Both the position numbers and the translations under genes were made by a program. The notes under the pieces were generated by a model. It worked only from the letters and a program-made list of their open reading frames with translations, searched no databases and was not told the origin of the DNA. Shown one piece after another: positions 9,189 to 53,383 of a DNA stretch of 64,000 bases. The number at the start of each line of letters is the position of its first letter. Position 1 is the stretch's first letter. The stretch covers positions 41,298-105,297 of the forward strand of contig NZ_JAOWPT010000017.1 in assembly GCF_025753855.1 (NCBI RefSeq), given 5' to 3'. The DNA comes from Mesorhizobium sp. ZC-5 (GTDB lineage: Bacteria > Pseudomonadota > Alphaproteobacteria > Rhizobiales > Rhizobiaceae).

Positions 9189-11315
9189 TTATAAGGCAAT
9201 TTGACGGTCGACTTCGAAACTGGCGCGTGTCGTCGCCAGCTGATCTTCCAGCGAAATCGGCCACGCTGATCCTGACTTCAGGGTCGCCGCCAACGCCGTC
9301 AACTCTTCCAGCTGGCCCTTCTCGATCGTCAACGCCTTCCAGCCGCCGCTGCCACCTGCCACGCTAAGCTGCTTGTAGTCATCCAGCGTAAGCACCTTGC
9401 CGTCGACAAATATCTCGGCGCGCTCCTTCGGATAGCTCTTCGAGCCCATAGCGGTATAGGTGAGCGTGCACACCGAGCCGTCGGCGTAACGTAGCGTCGC
9501 GACGAAATTGTCGTCCGGTCGCCAATATTTGGTATCGGAAACAATCGACGCCGCCTGGATGCCCACCGGCTGGCTTTCGGTCAGTGCGTTGAAGAGATCG
9601 TAGATATGGCAGGCCTCGCCGATGTTGCGGCCACCGCCTTGCGGACCATGAACCCAATGATCCGACGGAATATAACCCGCATTCATGCGATAGTTGACGA
9701 TCATTGGGGACGTGCGGCCGGCCAGTGCCTTTTTTGCGGCCGCGATGGCAGGAGAGAAGCGGCGGTTGAAACCGGTCATCAGTACCGGTCCCTTCGGGTT
9801 CTCGCTGTAGAAGCTTTCGATCTGCTGCAGTTCCTCTTCCGTCATCGCGAGCGGTTTCTCGACAAAGACGTGCTTTCCGGCCTTCAGTGCCCTCAACGTC
9901 ATATCGGCGTGCAGATCGTGGCGCGTCGCGATCAGCACCAAATCGATAGCCGGATCTGCGAGCACTGCCTCAAAATCGGTCGATGCGTTGGCGGCACCGA
10001 ACCGCTCCGCCGCGCCGCGCGCCGAAAGCCCGGTGCGGCTGACAATCGTGTGAAGTTCATATGAATCCTTCAGCTTCTGCAGGTTCGGCAAGTGCATTCC
10101 CTGGGCGAACCCTCCGGCACCGATCAGAGCCAGCTTGATCTTGCCGCTCTTCGCGGCTGGCGCGGCCACCTGAAGCGTGGCCTTGCGCGCTTCCTCGCGC
10201 TCCGGGTATTTCAGGAGCACCAGCAACGGCTTCGCACCAGGAGCGCTGAGCAAGCCGTAGGCCTCTTCAGCCCGGTCGATATCGAACGGGTCCTGCAGCA
10301 TGTTGGCGAGGCTGATCTTTCCGGCCGCGAGCTGGCGAAGATATTCGCTCATGTTGCGGTTTTCGGTCCAGCGCACATAGGCGATCGGATAGTCCGCGCC
10401 CTCTTCCTCGTAGAGCGGGTCGTAGCGGCCCGGCCCGTATGAGGTGGAAATAAAGAAATCGAGTTCCTTGGTGTAGATGTCCGAGCGGGCGATGTTCAGC
10501 CCGACATCGCCGACAACAACGACGCGCGCCTTGCGCCGACATGCCTGGAAAGCCTGGGCAAGAATCTCGCTGCTCGACGAGGCAGCGGTGATTATGACCG
10601 CATCGGCGCCATATCCATCGGTAAGCTTGGTGATCTTTTCGACGAGATCGCCATCGCCGGCCTTGATGCCGATATCCATTCCGTTGTCGAGCGCGGTCTG
10701 GATACGCTTCTCGTCGACGTCGGTTCCAATCACGCGGCAGCCGCTGGCGGTCAGAAGCTGCGCGGTGATCTGCCCGAGGATACCGAGACCGATCACGACA
10801 ACCGTCTCACCCAGAGTCGGGTTCGTGCGCCGTACGCCCTGCATGGCGATCGCGCCAAGCGTCACCGTCGCGGCCGGGCCGAATTCGAGGCTGTCCGGAA
10901 TGGAAACCGTCAAGTTGACCGGCACGTCGATGATTTCGGCGTGATTGGCGATGCCCGCCCCGGCGCACGCGACGCGGTCGCCAATCTTCAATCCCTCGAC
11001 TTCGGAGCCGACCGCGATCACCGTCCCCGCGGCCGAATATCCGGTCGGCAGGCCTGCGTCGAGCTTGCCCTTGATCTGCTTGTAGACCCGGGCAAAGCCC
11101 TGGTCCTTCATCAACTGCAGGGCTTTCTTGACGTGATGCGGCTGTTTCAACGCGCGCCTGTAAAGCGGCAGGCCCGACATTTTGACGCCGGCCATCTCGG
11201 TGCCGACGCTGACGCAGGACTGCTTGACGCTGACCAGGACATTTTTCGGGCTGACGGTCGGAGCCGGCACATCCTTCAGGAAAACCTTGCCCGATTTGAC
11301 CAAAAGCTGCTTCAC
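9189..11315 (-). CDS. Two-domain oxidoreductase: zinc-type dehydrogenase fused to Gfo/Idh/MocA oxidoreductase
   Basis: This 708-residue protein joins two dehydrogenases. Residues 1-350 are a medium-chain (alcohol/threonine dehydrogenase-like) unit with the Rossmann motif VVIGLGILGQITAQL near 175 and the substrate domain GYSAAGTVIAVGSEVEGLKIGDRVAC. Residues about 390-708 are a Gfo/Idh/MocA unit with LALIGAGGFAQGMHLPNL and EKPLAMTEEEL. The catalytic zinc ligands of the first unit are not clearly preserved. This fused architecture recurs in bacterial capsule and exopolysaccharide loci beside heparinase and asnB-like genes; the exact reaction is not known to me. Its ATG overlaps the wecC stop by four bases (ATGA), so the two are coupled. 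Confidence 0.82.
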   Translation of the reverse strand: MKQLLVKSGKVFLKDVPAPTVSPKNVLVSVKQSCVSVGTEMAGVKMSGLPLYRRALKQPHHVKKALQLMKDQGFARVYKQIKGKLDAGLPTGYSAAGTVIAVGSEVEGLKIGDRVACAGAGIANHAEIIDVPVNLTVSIPDSLEFGPAATVTLGAIAMQGVRRTNPTLGETVVVIGLGILGQITAQLLTASGCRVIGTDVDEKRIQTALDNGMDIGIKAGDGDLVEKITKLTDGYGADAVIITAASSSSEILAQAFQACRRKARVVVVGDVGLNIARSDIYTKELDFFISTSYGPGRYDPLYEEEGADYPIAYVRWTENRNMSEYLRQLAAGKISLANMLQDPFDIDRAEEAYGLLSAPGAKPLLVLLKYPEREEARKATLQVAAPAAKSGKIKLALIGAGGFAQGMHLPNLQKLKDSYELHTIVSRTGLSARGAAERFGAANASTDFEAVLADPAIDLVLIATRHDLHADMTLRALKAGKHVFVEKPLAMTEEELQQIESFYSENPKGPVLMTGFNRRFSPAIAAAKKALAGRTSPMIVNYRMNAGYIPSDHWVHGPQGGGRNIGEACHIYDLFNALTESQPVGIQAASIVSDTKYWRPDDNFVATLRYADGSVCTLTYTAMGSKSYPKERAEIFVDGKVLTLDDYKQLSVAGGSGGWKALTIEKGQLEELTALAATLKSGSAWPISLEDQLATTRASFEVDRQIAL

Positions 11316-44939: not shown

Positions 44940-45014
44940 TGGGGCGTCGCCAAGTGGTAAGGCATCGGTTTTTGGTACCGACATTCCCAGGTTCGAATCC
45001 TGGCGCCCCAGCCA
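44940..45014 (+). tRNA. tRNA-Gln (anticodon TTG)
   Basis: A complete cloverleaf can be drawn: acceptor TGGGGCG pairs with CGCCCCA, D stem GCC/GGC, anticodon stem TCGGT/ACCGA with loop TTTTGGT, and T stem CCAGG/CCTGG with TTCGAAT loop. The anticodon is TTG (Gln). G73 is followed by an encoded CCA (45012-45014). Its 3-prime end faces the accessory region, as in common integration targets. I saw no repeated copy of the tRNA end within the window. Confidence 0.95.
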
Positions 45015-46444: not shown

Positions 46445-46481
46445 TGTAGACTGATCGTCGGCTACGCTCAACGCTGTCGAT

Positions 46482-46688
46482 GTGGACATTCGTGAACGCC
46501 TAGCCCGAAATTTGCGCAGGCTGCGGCAGCAGAAAAACCTGTCGCAGGAGGCTTTCGCACACGACGTAGGGATCCATCGCACGTACATATCCGACCTTGA
46601 ACGTGGCGCCCGGAATCCGACCGTAACCATCATCGATAAACTGGCACGGTTCCTAGATGTAACGCCCGGGACGTTGTTGGACGAGTAG
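46482..46688 (+). CDS. XRE-family helix-turn-helix regulator (small)
   Basis: The 68-residue protein, translated from a GTG, is a single Cro/C1-type HTH: ERLARNLRRLRQQKNLSQEA, FAHDVGIHRTYISDLERGAR, NPTVTIIDKLARFLDV. The length and the DLERGARNPT stretch resemble controller proteins of restriction-modification systems and small phage/plasmid repressors. No methylase or endonuclease gene is beside it. The inverted repeat upstream makes autoregulation likely. No strong ribosome site is seen, so the message may be leaderless or poorly translated. Confidence 0.85.
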   Translation: MDIRERLARNLRRLRQQKNLSQEAFAHDVGIHRTYISDLERGARNPTVTIIDKLARFLDVTPGTLLDE

Positions 46689-47370: not shown

Positions 47371-47675
47371 GCGCCTACAATTTCGGTCGCCCCCTTCTCA
47401 ATTCAATCAATCATAGATTTAAATAAAGCGCCATAAATCAACCATAAGTAGCCTCATGCGCGCGTCGGCGACCAGATTGCATTTGGGCCGAGGCGGTTCC
47501 AGCACGTCGCCGATCAGCCGGTCGCAGACGTGGCGCAGTTCTGCGTGGAAGTGCGGACGCAGTCAGGGATGACGATGTGGTCCTGGAGCTCTTCCGGCAT
47601 CTGGCAAGACATCGGGCATCAGGACGATTGGGCGCCGGTGGCGGGCAGTGAACATCTTGGCGTACTCCTTGACCC
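47371..47675. other. Debris region before the repeat array
   Basis: The minus strand holds coding-like pieces in different frames, such as MFTARHRRPIVLMPDVL and CDRLIGDVLEPPRPKCNLVA, ending in a stop near 47420. They look like one decayed gene whose family I do not recognise. No complete gene is present. Confidence 0.45.
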
Positions 47676-48273
47676 ACTGGATCATTCTCAGGTGCGACGT
47701 GAGTGGCTTGTGGTTTGCATAATTCCGGCCTGCCAGGCGGAGAGCGGTGACCAAAAATTGCAACGGGTTGCAACGAATTCGCGGACAACTTCCTGGGGGA
47801 ATTTGTAACGCGTTACAGCTGACGCGACGCACTGGATCATTCCCCAGGTGCTGCGTGAGCGACTTGTGGCTGCCCGCCAGGCGGAGAGCCGGCGACCAAA
47901 AATTGCAACGCGTTGCAACGAATTCGCGGACAACTTCCTGGGGGAATTTGTAACGCGTTACAGCTGACGCGACGCACTGGATCATTCCCCAGGTGCTGCG
48001 TGAGCGGCTTGTGGCTGCCCGCCAGGCGGAGAGCCGGCGACCAAAAATTGCAACGCGTTGCAACGGGCGAATTCGCGGACAGCGTACCTGGGAAAATTGC
48101 AACGCATTGCAATTGACGTGATGTACTGGCTTATCCCCCAATGCGGCCTGAATGACCTGTGGTTTGCATAGCTCCTGCCCGCATGGCGGAGAAGCCGGTG
48201 ACCCAAAAATGCAACGGGTTGCAACGGGCGAATTCACGGACGCCTACCTAGGGAAACTGCAACGCTTTGCAAC
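47676..48273. repeat. Tandem repeat array with palindromes (left part)
   Basis: Four units of about 145-155 bp begin with ACTGG at 47676, 47831, 47976 and 48125. Each carries two palindromes: TTGCAACGCGTTGCAA-type sites (47758, 47903, 48048, 48209) and a second site, TGTAACGCGTTACA (47804, 47949) or a TTGCAA-type relative (48097, 48257). Units also share GGCTTGTGG, GGCGGAG and GAATTC. The two central units are nearly identical. IS66 interrupts the last palindrome at 48273. Confidence 0.85.
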
Positions 48274-48350
48274 GTATGCCTCCGGTGAGAGCCGCCCTGT
48301 AGCTGAGGGCGAACGTTGGAAGTCCCAGAGGTAATCCTAGGAGTAGCCCT

Positions 48351-48724
48351 ATGACGATACCGCGAGTGGAGGTGATCACGTCGGTTGAGAGAAGGAAGGC
48401 TTGGTAGCGTTGTCGTTCGAGCCCGGCGTGTCGGTGTCGGAAGTTGCGCGATCAGCGGGCATTCACGTCAGCCAGCTCTTTCGATGGCGTAAGGACCTGT
48501 GCGATCGGGTCGATGCCAGTTCATCGCAATTGGTGCCGTGGAGATCGTTCCGGCTGCTACCGTGTCACCCGCGTTGATGCGCCGGTGCCATCGGCCTCTC
48601 CCGGCCGACGTCGCCGCAAGAGCGGCATCAGATCGAACTTGGCGGCGGGCGCTGCGTCCGCGTCGATCGAGACGTGGATGCCGAGGCGCTGCGGCGCGTT
48701 CTGGACGCAATCGGCTCGCGATGA
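48351..48724 (+). pseudogene. IS66 TnpA, frameshifted
   Basis: The start MTIPRVEVITSVERRK runs into a TAG at about codon 19. The helix-turn-helix part VALSFEPGVSVSEVARSAGI and HVSQLFRWRKDLCDRVDAS are readable in another frame, then another shift follows before the end VDAEALRRVLDAIGSR. The stop overlaps the tnpB start by four bases (ATGA), the normal coupling in IS66 elements. Confidence 0.8.
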
Positions 48725-49068
48725 TCCAGGTTCCGAGCGGTGTGCGGGTGTGGCTTGCGACAGGCCACACCGACATGAGGAAGGGCTTTCCGGGCTTGGC
48801 GCTGGTGGTGCAGGAGACGCTGAAGCATGATCCGCACAATGGTCACCTGTTTGTCTTCCGCGGTTGCCGCGGTGATCTGATCAAGGTTCTGTGGCACGAC
48901 GGCCAGGGCGCCTGCCTGTTCTCGAAGAAGCTTGAGCGCGGCCGCTTCATCTGGCCGTCGCCGGCCGACGGCGGGGTCACGATCACGCCGGCGCAGCTCA
49001 GCTATCAGCTCGAAGGCATCGACTGGCGCATGCCGCAGAAGACCTGGCGGCCGACGGCGACCGGCTGA
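48721..49068 (+). CDS. tnpB: IS66 TnpB accessory protein, intact
   Basis: The 115-residue protein is complete: MIQVPSGVRVWLATGHTDMR, KGFPGLALVVQETL, DPHNGHLFVFRGCRGDLIKVLWHDGQGACLFSKKLERGRFIWP. These are the standard IS66 Orf2 (TnpB) motifs. TnpB is needed for IS66 transposition but its exact role is unclear. Because tnpA and tnpC are broken, it has no working partners in this copy. Confidence 0.93.
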   Translation: MIQVPSGVRVWLATGHTDMRKGFPGLALVVQETLKHDPHNGHLFVFRGCRGDLIKVLWHDGQGACLFSKKLERGRFIWPSPADGGVTITPAQLSYQLEGIDWRMPQKTWRPTATG

Positions 49069-49113
49069 CGATTTTGGCCTTGCACATGGTGGTGGAGGTG
49101 AATCTATCGCCCT

Positions 49114-50720
49114 GTGTCCGCTGCTGAATCGCTCCCTTCCGACCTCGCCGCCGCGCACGCGATGATCCTCGCGGAGCGCGCCGCACGCGTCGAGGCCGAA
49201 GCGCTTGCCGCCCGCGCGGCGGCGGTCAGTTCCGGGACGGAGGCGCTGATTGCACAACTGAAGCTGGAGATCGAGAAGCTCAGGCGCGAGCTCTACGGCA
49301 GCTGCTCGGAACGCAAGGCCAGGCTGCTCGAGCAGATGGAACTACAGCTCGAAGTTCTGGAGGCGGATGCAACCGAGGACGAGTTGGCGGCGGAGCAGGC
49401 AGCCCTCCAGTCACAGACTGTTCGCACGTTTGAGCGCCGGCGCCCCTCGCGCAAACCGTTCCCGGAGCATCTGCCGCGTGAACGCGTCATCATCGCCGCG
49501 CCCGAGAGCTGCCCCTGCTGCGGGTCGACCAAGCTGTCGAAGCTAGGCGAGGACGTTACCGAGACGCTGGAGGTGATCCCGCGCCAATGGAAGGTGATCC
49601 AGACGGTGCGCGAGAAGTTCGTGCCGGCAGTGCGAGGCGATCAGCCAGCCACCGGCGCCGTTCCACGTCACGCCGCGCGGCTTTGCCGGGACGAACCTGC
49701 TTACCATGATGCTGTTCGAGAAGTTCGGCCAGCATCAGCCGCTGAACCGGCAGAGCGAACGTTATGCCCGGGAGGGCGTCGATCTCAGCCTGTCGACGCT
49801 AGCCGATAAGGTCGGCGACTGCGCGGCGGCGCTGCGTCCGCTGCATTCTCTGATCGAGGAGCATGTGCTGAAGGCAGAGCGCCTTCACGGCGACGACACC
49901 ACGGTGCCGATCCTGGCGAAGGGCAAGACCGATACCGGCCGAGCCTGAGTTTATGTCCGCGATGATCGCCCTTTCGGTGGGGCATCACCACCGGCAGCTC
50001 TGTTCTACGCCTCACGCGACCGGTCGGGCGAGCATCCCGAGCGGCACCTGAAGCAGTTCATCGGCATTCTGCAGGCCGATGCCTATGCCGGTTACAACCG
50101 GCTCTACCTCTCCGCCCGGAAGCCCGCACCAGTGACGGAAGCGCTCTGCTGGAGTCATGCCAGGCGCAAGTTCTTCGTGCTGGCCGACATCGCCGCCAAT
50201 ACCCGCCGGGGAAAGACCGCGCCGGCGATCTCGCCAATCGCCTTCGAAGCCGTCAAACGCATTGATCTCCTGTTCGACATGGAGCGCGACATCAATGGTA
50301 TTGGCGCAGCCGAACGCCTTGCCGTGCGTCAGGAGCGGAGCGCGTCGCTCGTCGCCGAACTGGCGGCGAAGGGGCCCAACTCTCGCGCCATGCGCCCGCC
50401 GCACAGGCGATCGACTACATGCTCAAGCGCTGGAATGGCTTCACACGCTTCCTCGCAGAGGGCGCGTCTGCATCACGAACAACGCGGCCGAACGGGCGCT
50501 GCGTGGCCTGGCTTTCGGCAGAAGTCCTGGCTCTTTGCCGGCTCCCAGCGCGGCGCCAATCGCGCCGCCGTCATGTATACGCTGATCGCAACCGCCCGCC
50601 TCAACGACGTCGACCCGCAGGCCTGGCTCGCCGACGTGCTCGCCCACATCGCCGATACGCCGCAAAGCCGGCTGAGCGATCTCCTGCCGTGGAACGGGCG
50701 CCGATCCACCGTCACGGCGA
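49114..50720 (+). pseudogene. IS66 TnpC (DDE transposase), frameshifted
   Basis: The reading frame begins at a GTG (SAAESLPSDLAAAHAMILAE) with the N-terminal leucine-zipper and zinc-finger part (CPCCGSTKLSKLGEDVTETL), but shifts after REKF. Later pieces LLTMMLFEKFGQHQPLNRQS, RLHGDDTTVPILAKGKTDTG, ADAYAGYNRLYLSARKPAPV, EALCWSHARRKFFVLADIAA and SWLFAGSQRGANRAAVMYTL are in shifting frames. At least four frameshifts or stops are present, so the transposase is not functional. Confidence 0.88.
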
Positions 50721-50755
50721 GAGCAGCCTGGCCGCGGCCCTCACCGGACGCCTAC

Positions 50756-51089
50756 GTTGCACCTGACGTGGCGCACGTGGATCTAGCGCCCAGGAGCGGC
50801 GTGAGTGGCTTGTGGTTTGCATAGCCCGACCCGCCATGCGGCGAGCGGGTGACCAAAATTGCAACGGGTTGCAACGGGCGAATTCACGGACGGCGTACCT
50901 AGGGAAATTGCAACGCGTTGCAACTGACATGCTCCCTGAATTGTTCTGGCTTTTGAGTTTAGCTTGTTCCCCACCGACGGCAGCATCGAAATAGACCCCT
51001 GCGCGAGCATGCCATTCTTTGAGCGCAGAAGCGATCCTCCCGCAGGGGGACGGCGTACCTAGGGAAATTGCAACGTGTTGCAATTGACA
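50756..51089. repeat. Tandem repeat array with palindromes (right part)
   Basis: The array resumes after IS66: the unit with GAGTGGCTTGTGGTTTGCAT and palindromes TTGCAACGGGTTGCAA (50859), TTGCAACGCGTTGCAA (50908) and TTGCAACGTGTTGCAA (51068). These continue the units seen at 48125-48273, which supports a single array split by the insertion. Confidence 0.8.
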
Positions 51090-51176
51090 TGCTCCCTGAA
51101 TTGTCCTGGCTTTTGAGTTTAGCTTGTTCCCCAACGACGGCAGCATCGAAATAGACCCCTGCGCGAGCATGCCATT
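50890..51176. repeat. Direct repeat, two copies of about 127 bp
   Basis: Bases 50890-51016 and 51050-51176 are near-identical (a few differences), offset by 160 bases. Each begins ACGGCGTACCTAGGGAAATT, contains one palindrome, and ends GCGCGAGCATGCCATT. A further shared block CTTTGAGCGCAGAAGCGATC occurs at 51017 and 51217, with about 40 extra bases before the second. The duplication belongs to the edge of the repeat array. Confidence 0.8.
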
Positions 51177-51397
51177 TTGTGCCATCGGTTTCGTTCCCGC
51201 GCTGTCCATCGCCTATCTTTGAGCGCAGAAGCGATCCTCGCGCAGGGGGGACGGCGAACCAGTCCATCACATTAAGAAAGATTTTGAAACGCTGCGTATC
51301 CGGCCTTTCCAGCGTGGATATGCGGGTTCACATGATCGCCAGCCAACGCCTGCGCGTGTAATGTAGAGAAAGGATCTGGGGGAGCCGAGACCGTACG
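51177..51397. other. Intergenic region before the cyclase gene
   Basis: Beyond the second copy of the shared block (51217-51250) nothing is recognised. It leads to the TTG start of the cyclase gene; GGGGGAG stands at about 51378. Confidence 0.5.
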
Positions 51398-53383
51398 TTG
51401 AAGTTGCCGGGCCGTGCTGGAAAGAAAGAAATCCCGATAAAGGGGGATGGCTCCACCTGGAGCCGCTCGCTGCAGTTCCTGCTCGGCGCGACGATGGTCT
51501 CGCTGATCGTCCTGGTTTCGGCGGCCCTGGTCGGCTTCGACTACTACCGAGCGCGGAATTCGGCCATCGAGGATGCCAAGGCCGAAATGCGGATCTTCTC
51601 CGATCGGCTTGCTGACCGTTTCGGCGTTCTTTCAGGCCAGACCGTCACGTTCGTCGGCGTGATCTCCTCCATCGCCAACGCGTTCCTCGTGCCGCCGCCG
51701 GAGCGCCTCGACGACAAGATCGCATTGCTACGGGAATTCATCGGCCGGTCCGCACAGGTCGACGGAGCGTATGCCGGCTATCCCGACGGTTCCTTTTTCC
51801 AGGTCGTGAACCTGAAGGAAGAAGGCTGGCGCAAGGCACTCCGCGCGCCCGACGATGCGGCGCTGGCTGTCCGGGTTGTCGCGGTGGAAGGCGATAAGAG
51901 AACCCAGCGCTGGCTCTTTCTTAATGCCGCCGGAGCGACGATCAGGGAATCCCCGGCGACGCCTACCGACTTCGATCCCCGCACGCGCCCCTGGTACAAG
52001 GCGGCCGCAAACATCGACAGCGCCGTCTCCATCGGCCCTTACCAGATGGCGACCACCGGCAACCTCGGAATGACGCTCGCCCAATCGCATCGGGGAAACC
52101 GGCAGATCGTAGTCGGCGCCGATATCATCCTCGACACGATAACGGACTTTCTTGCGGCCGAACGCATGTCCGCCGACACGATCGCCTTCATCGTCGACAC
52201 ATCGGGCAATCCGGTCATTCACTCCGACCGGAAGGTCATGAGCCGATTGATGCTCACTCCCGGAGAAGCCAAATCCCTGCCTCCGGCCGAGCCGGATCCG
52301 CTGATCGACAGCATCCGGTCCGACGATTCTTGGACGAGCGAACCCCGCTTCATCGATGTGAACGGTCGAACCTTCATGGTCCTGCTTACTCCGATAAAAT
52401 CCGGAGTGCTCCTGGAACGGCATAGGATGGCGGTGGCTGCGCCGCTCGACGAGTTGACGGCCCCGGCCAACCGCGCGCTTCTACAGGGGCTGGTCATCTC
52501 GGCCGGCGTCGTGGCGGCGGCAATCGCGCTTGCCCTGCTGCTTTCGCATGTGATCACAAAATCGCTCGAGCGCCTCACCGAAAGCGCCAACCGCCTGCAG
52601 AACCTCGATTTTGCCACGCCGATCGAAGTCGCCTCGCATGTACAGGAGATATCGACCCTCGGCGGAGCGATGAACAGGGCGCGCGACGCGATTTTCACCT
52701 TCGCTCTCTATGTCCCCAAGGAATTCGTCCGCAAAAGCGTGCAGGCCGGATATTTTACCGGCAGGTCGGCCAAACGGCAGGAAGTCACGGCGCTTTTCAC
52801 GGATATCTACGACTTCACCACGATCAGCGAAGGCCATTCTCCGGAAGAGGTGGTCGCCATGCTGTCGGAATATTTCGACATCCTCGACGAGGCCGTGAAG
52901 ACGCACGAAGGGTCCATCATCCAATTTCTCGGCGATTCGATCTTCGCGATGTGGAACGCACCGATCCCGGATTCGAACCACGCCAAACACGCCTGCAAGG
53001 CAGCGCTCGCCGCCGCGCAAAGTCTCCGGCTTTTCAACGATGCACAGGTAGCCAAAGGCCTGCCGGAATTTCGCACCCGTTTCGGCATCCACACGGGTCA
53101 GGCGGTCGTCGGCAGCGTCGGCGCGCAGGAACGGCTGCAGTACACGGCGATGGGCGACACCATCAACGTCGCGTCACGGCTGGAAGGCATCAACAAGGTC
53201 TATGGCACGACCATCCTCTCCAGCGCTGCCGTGGAGCAGGCATGCCGGCATGTTATCGAGTTCAGGCCGCTGGGGGTCGCTCAGGCGAAAGGCCGTGCCG
53301 AAACGCTGGAGGTCTATGAGGTCGTGGGCGCCCGCTCTGACGCAAGGACGGCCAGCCACGAAAAACTGGCCGTTCCGACATAG
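51398..53383 (+). CDS. Class III adenylate/guanylate cyclase with Cache sensor and HAMP domain
   Basis: The 661-residue protein is translated from a TTG at 51398. A membrane helix (about 27-48) leads into a periplasmic dCache domain (about 55-350, with FDPRTRPWYKAA), a second helix (ALLQGLVISAGVVAAAIALALL), a HAMP-like segment with SLERLTESANRLQNLDFATP, and the cyclase domain VTALFTDIYDFTTISEGHSP through GDTINVASRLEGINKVYGT. The metal-binding Asp of FTDI and of LGDSIFAMW are present. It makes cyclic AMP or GMP in response to an extracellular ligand. Rhizobia carry many such cyclases. It borders the accessory region. Confidence 0.93.
   Translation: MKLPGRAGKKEIPIKGDGSTWSRSLQFLLGATMVSLIVLVSAALVGFDYYRARNSAIEDAKAEMRIFSDRLADRFGVLSGQTVTFVGVISSIANAFLVPPPERLDDKIALLREFIGRSAQVDGAYAGYPDGSFFQVVNLKEEGWRKALRAPDDAALAVRVVAVEGDKRTQRWLFLNAAGATIRESPATPTDFDPRTRPWYKAAANIDSAVSIGPYQMATTGNLGMTLAQSHRGNRQIVVGADIILDTITDFLAAERMSADTIAFIVDTSGNPVIHSDRKVMSRLMLTPGEAKSLPPAEPDPLIDSIRSDDSWTSEPRFIDVNGRTFMVLLTPIKSGVLLERHRMAVAAPLDELTAPANRALLQGLVISAGVVAAAIALALLLSHVITKSLERLTESANRLQNLDFATPIEVASHVQEISTLGGAMNRARDAIFTFALYVPKEFVRKSVQAGYFTGRSAKRQEVTALFTDIYDFTTISEGHSPEEVVAMLSEYFDILDEAVKTHEGSIIQFLGDSIFAMWNAPIPDSNHAKHACKAALAAAQSLRLFNDAQVAKGLPEFRTRFGIHTGQAVVGSVGAQERLQYTAMGDTINVASRLEGINKVYGTTILSSAAVEQACRHVIEFRPLGVAQAKGRAETLEVYEVVGARSDARTASHEKLAVPT

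Follow-up and report, generated by a model that had tools for sequence, protein, structure and literature searches.

In the 64,000-nt stretch of Mesorhizobium sp. ZC-5 DNA analysed here (the window; contig NZ_JAOWPT010000017.1, positions 41,298–105,297), 11 palindromic sites form a tandem array that is divided by an IS66 element and adjoined on its left by a piece of a phage AAA+ ATPase gene. We consider it probable, at about two in three, that the array is a tandemly amplified relic of a phage of the L338C/p7 kind and that its palindromes are sites for a phage DNA-binding protein. These phages (79–110 kb) include the Rhizobium phages vB_RleS_L338C and RHph_I4 and p7, a 109-kb plasmid of Rhizobium bangladeshense (NZ_CP071625) with capsid, tail and phage replication genes. 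We directly observed the array, the gene fragment with its phage homology, and the half-site TGCAAC-NN-GTTGCA that the array and these phages share, together with the dispersal and placement of that half-site in the phages. The AAA+ homology and the presence of the phage TGCAAC-NN-GTTGCA sites are the two counts on which the array appears to be a relic. An earlier reading of this DNA from its letters alone (the sequence-only reading) had missed the phage source, the AAA+ fragment that adjoins the array.

In the course of events that we propose, a piece of the phage AAA+ ATPase gene would have entered the chromosome along with two phage palindromes and then decayed, and a block of ~145 bp, consisting of the short gene end and the two palindromes, would have been duplicated head to tail; the IS66 element would have inserted later, into one of the palindromes. 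In living phages, the palindromes would serve as the dispersed sites of a phage-encoded dimeric DNA-binding protein controlling transcription. We infer the protein binding and this order of events from the comparisons below, and the chromosomal copy is by the same reasoning probably mostly inert now.

A phage gene fragment on the left flank of the array

The minus-strand frame that spans the array matched the AAA+ ATPase of p7 at 16 of 33 residues (E = 4e-6), and in a tblastn search of the p7 protein against the window the region 47451–47723 ranked first (E = 1.6e-7). A closer homolog (L239) matched the fragment in three colinear high-scoring segment pairs, lying in different frames, at 48, 61 and 40% identity; most of the linked tblastx list from which these come is low-complexity noise, and we relied in it solely on the AAA+ rows of L239 and p7. 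Local alignment of the fragment at the DNA level scored 74 with L239 (maximum of 30 shuffles, 21.5) and 66 with p7 (shuffled maximum, 24.0), so that the homology to the p7 gene extends to DNA. Taken together, the colinear pairs and the DNA alignment scores argue that 47451–47723 (minus strand, approximately codons 117–215) is a frameshifted piece of the AAA+ gene of L338C/p7-like phages, nearest to the p7/L239 branch.

The array begins at the upstream end of this fragment, and 40–47 nt of gene sequence in unit 1 recur in the other aligned units; what is new here is that this portion of the unit, like the left end of the array, derives from a phage gene. Read on the minus strand, the corresponding peptide is HKPLTSHLR in unit 1, HKSLTQHLG in unit 2 and HKPLTQHLG in unit 3, and HKMLTQHLG in p7. 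The view that the units have no coding potential of their own must therefore be amended for the part derived from the AAA+ gene and otherwise stands.

Among 50,697 phage records, the N-terminal part of this gene was present in 22 (L338C and SM1 counted twice), whose hosts are Rhizobium, Agrobacterium, Rhodobacter, Aeromonas and Pseudomonas. It was present in only two of 72,556 plasmid records, one of them p7, and in two of 395 genomes of the family, namely this locus and one weak match. The gene is found almost only in L338C/p7-like phages. An 81-bp query had itself found p7, at five places, with E = 0.6 only and alongside three chance-like records, and p7 was examined further because of its repeated sites.

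Structure of the array

All 11 palindromes that the sequence-only reading had listed over 3.4 kb proved real, at 47758, 47803/4, 47903, 47948/9, 48048, 48097, 48209, 48257, 50859, 50908 and 51068. Nine match TTGCAACGCGTTGCAA with at most two mismatches and the two TGTAAC sites do so with three; within the window, matches to TTGCAACGCGTTGCAA at 13 or more of the 16 positions are confined to the array. At the looser threshold of 12 of 16, the window gave 13 matches and 20 shuffles gave 0–10, a count that taken alone would be weak evidence. The pattern TNNAACGCGTTNNA was matched five times in the window with 0.03 expected, and none of 100 shuffles reached five. An exact fit to TGCAACNNGTTGCA was found for 7 of the 11 sites, the remaining four being altered in one or both half-sites. 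Dyad pairing in the 16-bp register was complete (8 of 8 pairs) for three sites, 7 of 8 for six and 6 of 8 for two, making eight of the dyads imperfect, and the central dinucleotide was GC, GG or GT, never CG.

The sites alternate between two types, with 45–49 bp from an A to its B and 100–112 bp from a B to the next A. Unit 1 (47676–47830; A at 47758, B at 47803) has the upstream end of the AAA+ fragment as its left part, and is followed by unit 2 (47831–47975, 145 bp; 47903 and 47948), unit 3 (47976–48124; 48048 and 48097) and unit 4 (48125–48273; 48209 and 48257), whose B site is the IS66 target; unit 5 (50756–50931; 50859 and 50908) lies to the right of the IS66 element. The earlier description of two-palindrome units of about 145 bp holds for these, with lengths of 145–161 bp, but not for the right end of the array, which is a separate duplication of two 134-bp copies 160 bp apart (50888–51181), each with one B-type site (50908 and 51068); because that end holds this different duplication, 51068 is a lone B-type site.

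The 145-bp copies at 47745–47889 and 47890–48034 are 98% identical. Mean pairwise identity was 0.94 for the A site, 0.82 for the B site, 0.80 for the linker and 0.75 for the upstream part, the A palindrome thus being the best conserved portion of the unit in this comparison of five units, made with no significance test. In units 1 and 2 the B site has TGTAACGCGTTACA in place of TGCAAC..GTTGCA, altered on both sides with the dyad kept; because these units sit in the recent duplication, the paired change may go back to a single event.

The same palindromes dispersed through phage genomes

The half-site of the array recurs throughout the L338C-like phages, where the sites are dispersed and at least 370 bp apart, whereas the window has a tandem array and no more than one gene fragment. 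We counted palindromes in the whole of p7, in 100 of the 109.6 kb of L338C, in 50 of the 96.9 kb of JP1, and in 40 kb each of RHph_I4, HJ05, RcMenchie, DLP5 and SM1. Copies of TGCAACNNGTTGCA numbered 41 in p7, 43 in the L338C stretch (its first 100 kb), 22 in RHph_I4 and 8 in HJ05, and no gapped palindrome was more frequent in any of these four; JP1 had 18 copies of TGCAAANNTTTGCA, DLP5 had 11 of TGCAATNNATTGCA and RcMenchie 9, and SM1 had 6 of GTGCAANNNNTTGCAC. The top gapped palindrome of RcMenchie is GCAATCGATTGC (10 copies), of which 9 extend to TGCAATNNATTGCA or its like. Top counts for gapped palindromes in shuffled sequences were 1–3 (two shuffles per phage); this control is small, as are those of 20 shuffles for the window matches and 30 for the fragment alignments. 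The commonest gapped palindrome was of one type in p7 and the stretches of the seven phages, with a TGCAA half-site in 7 of the 8; hosts were Rhizobium, Agrobacterium, Rhodobacter, Aeromonas, Stenotrophomonas and Pseudomonas (DLP5, included through its capsid protein, falls outside the hosts counted for the AAA+ gene). Between phages the half-site drifts, and each siphophage stretch examined has 6–43 palindromes.

In p7, 27 of the 41 sites lie within the 7.3% of the DNA that is non-coding, and 18 of these 27 start 2–15 nt after a stop codon, figures that depend on gene limits typed by hand and on a plasmid gene table that may be incomplete. None of the 41 has a CG centre. Promoter-like motifs had a palindrome 0–40 nt upstream in 14 of 24 cases in L338C, 10 of 14 in RHph_I4 and 8 of 20 in p7; the stretches that qualify for such pairing, 0–40 nt downstream of a palindrome, cover 1.5–2.3% of the phage DNA. 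Viewed from the sites, 32 of the 106 in these three phages stand 6–18 nt before such a motif. These counts are descriptive, the motifs having been chosen after inspection of the sites. Median palindrome spacing in the same three was 1.7–2.3 kb.

Dispersed palindromes, some of them directly before promoter-like motifs, point to an undescribed phage control system, and the dyads have the look of a control or immunity system that operates genome-wide in a group of large phages, among them some that are maintained as plasmids. Most likely they are, as predicted from sequence comparison, the sites of a phage-encoded dimeric regulator, and their placement fits promoter control and the separation of transcription units. 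The idea that the dyads in the array bind a dimeric protein was reasonable in the sequence-only reading and gains because related phages have dozens of copies of the half-site, some of them at a fixed distance from promoter-like motifs, whereas the specific candidates then offered (LacI, parS, iteron, XRE) fare worse. The array has thereby led to a larger matter, this apparent genome-wide dyad system in a group of large phages.

Both p7 and L338C have a reverse-strand gene with a palindrome in its divergent promoter region; the reverse-strand gene of JP1 is without one, and the genes of L338C and JP1 are unrelated to that of p7. Relatives of the p7 gene occur in the viral contigs L061 and L064 (77.5%), and a structure model of the L061 relative was of low confidence (predicted local distance difference test score, 61). 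Searches with the p7 gene gave no homolog in the phage collection, no PHROGs family, and E = 0.16 only in the ZC-5 genome. These results, with the unrelated genes of L338C and JP1 and the lack of a palindrome before the latter, weaken its candidacy as the binding protein. Isolation of DLP5 as a phagemid has been reported, as have two proteins with ParB domains in its genome (PMC7326821, in excerpt), and for that reason a centromere role of the dyads in phages is conceivable.

Distribution of the array

When the left array was compared by BLAST with its own genome (6.34 Mb, 68 contigs), this locus alone was found, besides 20–25-nt matches at E = 0.5. The 16-mer at two or fewer mismatches occurred at 11 places in that genome, 9 of them in the array and the other 2 equal in number to a reversed-pattern control (2); no second palindrome cluster was found there, and no array match in two other genomes of the genus. 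Against 297 other genomes of the family, the 641-bp left array matched just two, over 25 and 33 nt; the plasmid collection gave none, and the phages gave only Bacillus phage matches at chance level. A sequence model of the unit, run on the 395 family genomes, recovered the own locus and eight others at E-values of 5e-4 to 5e-3 per genome, of which one (L231, in genome G730) has three palindromes, one (L224) has one palindrome-like core and six are chance-like. Among the best 10 candidates per genome from this model, under stricter filters, there was no second tandem array.

A doublet pattern found the own locus only in 397 genomes of the order, and 24 stretches from several phyla in wider genome contigs, 13 of which were inspected with their genes. 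The linker pattern had no match in viral contigs, where a search with TGTAACGCGTTACA gave at least 120 matches and was uninformative; tblastn of the 224-aa minus-strand open reading frame (ORF) against plasmids found nothing. The sequence-only reading had named a common dispersed rhizobial repeat as the finding that would overturn it, and this was tested: a RIME/REP-type repeat is ruled out by the single array in the own genome and by the brevity of the matches elsewhere in the family (25 and 33 nt), which involved two of 297 genomes.

Weighing the explanations

Several observations weigh against descent from an L338C/p7-like phage. At the fragment, homology is clear for the p7/L239 branch only: DNA alignment with L338C itself scored 26.5 against a shuffled maximum of 26.0, that is, no signal at the DNA level. 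A whole-family AAA+ profile, built from all homologs, many of them distant, gave E-values of 0.07 and 0.25 there, the only ones at or below 1 in the six frames of the window. The 9-residue match of unit 3 has on its own an E-value of 2.7, the other units being linked to the gene through their alignment with unit 1. Among the window frames, blastp recognised nothing else from p7 or from the first 100 kb of L338C, and the AAA+ genes of p7, L338C and L239 have no palindrome inside them; the step that would have placed two sites there is unseen. On the phage side, an array is absent from all three L338C-like phages that were measured (smallest spacings of 370, 416 and 521 bp), 74 of the 106 palindromes are without a promoter-like motif of the kind described, 0 of the 18 JP1 sites have TTGA within 22 nt, and no shared binding protein was found, the reverse-strand gene of p7 having no homolog in the phage collection. 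Palindromes of the array type also occur in other prophages and in host loci, and the unit model scores two prophage doublets well (L022, E = 1.3e-6; L018, E = 1.2e-5); because of this the palindromes are insufficient proof of L338C-type descent by themselves, and it is the AAA+ fragment that provides the evidence for it.

A neutral minisatellite, in which a phage fragment with palindromes was multiplied by recombination or slippage and has no present binding role, agrees with the preferred phage-relic explanation on origin and differs from it only on present activity; the occurrence of two distinct tandem duplications (145 and 160 bp), the frameshifts in the AAA+ fragment and the decay of the IS66 element speak for it, the better conservation of the A palindrome than of the rest of the unit (five units, no significance test) speaks against it, and we regard its chances as evenly balanced. 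The array might instead be kept by the host as a decoy, its tandem copies titrating the DNA-binding protein of L338C-like phages that enter the cell and disturbing their gene control. Such a role is possible from the density of sites (11 of phage type in ~0.9 kb outside the IS66 element, against the median phage spacing of 1.7–2.3 kb), from the conservation of the A palindrome, from the two-sided changes in the B sites of unit 1 and unit 2, which left the dyad intact, and from the lack of a second cluster in the genome; it sits poorly with units 1 and 2 being near copies, in which the paired change may be one event, with the 8 of 11 sites that are imperfect dyads, with the splitting of the array by IS66 and with the lack of a match in two other genomes of the genus, and we think it unlikely. 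Equally improbable to us is the wider proposal that phages of the L338C/DLP5/SM1 group share many dispersed TGCAA-type dyads read by one protein, with a drifting half-site, and that some bacteria captured these sites and multiplied them, the resulting chromosomal array acting as a decoy and interfering with the phages. If the chromosomal array does bind the phage protein, it would offer a simple test of operator decoys as a means of phage interference.

Explanations from outside the phages fared less well. LacI-type operators have CG at the dyad centre. An array of operators for a host regulator of the LacI or TetR type would find parallels, judged by eye, in TTGCAACCGGTTGCAA sites before inositol-type genes with LacI-type genes near and in doublets ~42 bp apart near a TetR-like gene of Bradyrhizobium (L030), but the LacI-linked sites have CG centres and 0 of the 11 array sites do, no LacI family member was seen among the 18 window proteins scanned, the genome lacks the second strong site that an autoregulated regulator would have, and a genome (G002) with an ortholog of the adjacent cyclase gene has no array; a host operator array is therefore very unlikely. 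An iteron-like origin had also been suggested; we saw no replication gene in the ORFs that were scanned. A parS array left by a lost or integrated repABC-type plasmid, the remaining suggestion, would agree with the 16-bp palindromes in several copies, since repABC replicons can carry several parS (PMC9040568, in excerpt). The published parS consensus GTTNNNNGCNNNNAAC is, however, unmatched in the array, its single match in the window lying outside it at 9987, and the only RepB gene found is on contig 7, amid 11 kb with no array-type palindrome; that region has no match to the consensus either, which may not describe the strain's own sites. We consider this explanation extremely unlikely.

Comparison with known systems

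Among systems of dispersed sites, the KorB/KorA operators of IncP plasmids are palindromes read by one plasmid protein. The phage dyads may be compared with them as dispersed palindromes and differ in sequence. The stoperators of Cluster A mycobacteriophages are also dispersed, a genome having up to ~30 of them, and their motif drifts from one relative to another; they are asymmetric sites, most of which face the same way (PMC6550527, in excerpt). By analogy with this part of the published description, the phage dyads may be comparable in logic, being alike in their dispersal and drifting motif; here the sites are palindromic. The array was not assigned to the stoperator system itself, its sites being palindromes and not asymmetric sites in one orientation. 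The parS sites of repABC replicons are 16-bp palindromes, sometimes in several copies, as in the array (PMC9040568, PMC10194956, with further background from PMC4492784, all in excerpt); no repABC locus was seen beside the array. We found no literature on this palindrome, or on palindromes in L338C, among open-licence PubMed Central papers, and the main text of PMC8601537 does not mention palindromes, stoperators or TGCAA.

The IS66 element and neighbouring genes

Elements of the IS66 family are marked by inverted ends and an 8-bp target duplication. The element that divides the array (48274–50755, plus strand) was correctly recognised from the outset: IS66 domains (TnpB, DDE_Tnp_IS66) lie between units 4 and 5, and the element is decayed, with TnpB and pieces of TnpC, its transposase split across frames. 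Its ends are identical at 21 of 30 positions and the flanking octamers (TTTGCAAC/GTTGCACC) at 6 of 8, and these imperfect matches are what an old insertion would leave, the B palindrome of unit 4 being its target. We infer that the array ran on into unit 5 before that insertion.

To the right of the array is a cyclase gene (51398–53383; Guanylate_cyc domain), whose ortholog in G002 is 72% identical at the DNA level. To the left, 2.4 kb from the AAA+ fragment, is a tRNA-Gln gene (44940–45014), which could possibly have been the integration point of the lost phage. A 69-aa XRE-type gene (46479–46688) lies between this tRNA gene and the array, 1 kb left of the latter; it had been proposed as a binding partner, and nothing ties it to the array.

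Similar dyads in other prophages and host loci

Gene names in this section were assigned by eye. In three prophage contigs (L018, L022 and L032) a terminase-like gene has two palindromes at its start, 48–51 bp from each other; L018 is the same prophage as L032, of Chelativorans. The three sites of L231 in G730 resemble this arrangement and look like the L022 prophage site in particular. In Lutimaribacter (L028:3817–4600), four palindromes lie within 200 bp and a fifth ~590 bp on, with no regulator recognised by eye. The CG-centred TTGCAACCGGTTGCAA precedes inositol-type genes in genomes G006 and G057 (loci L087, L088, L089 and L090; two of the four sites in G057 were inspected), with LacI-type regulator genes near, in L087 and L089. 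Doublets 40–42 bp apart occur in Bradyrhizobium loci and a Pseudomonadota metagenome-assembled genome (L030, L039 and L041), near SDR- or NTF2-like genes, that of L030 adjoining the TetR-like gene. Small arrays of 2–6 TTGCAAC-type palindromes ~42 bp apart occur in Hymenobacter (L026, L044 and L036), independent of the present array and similar to it in build.

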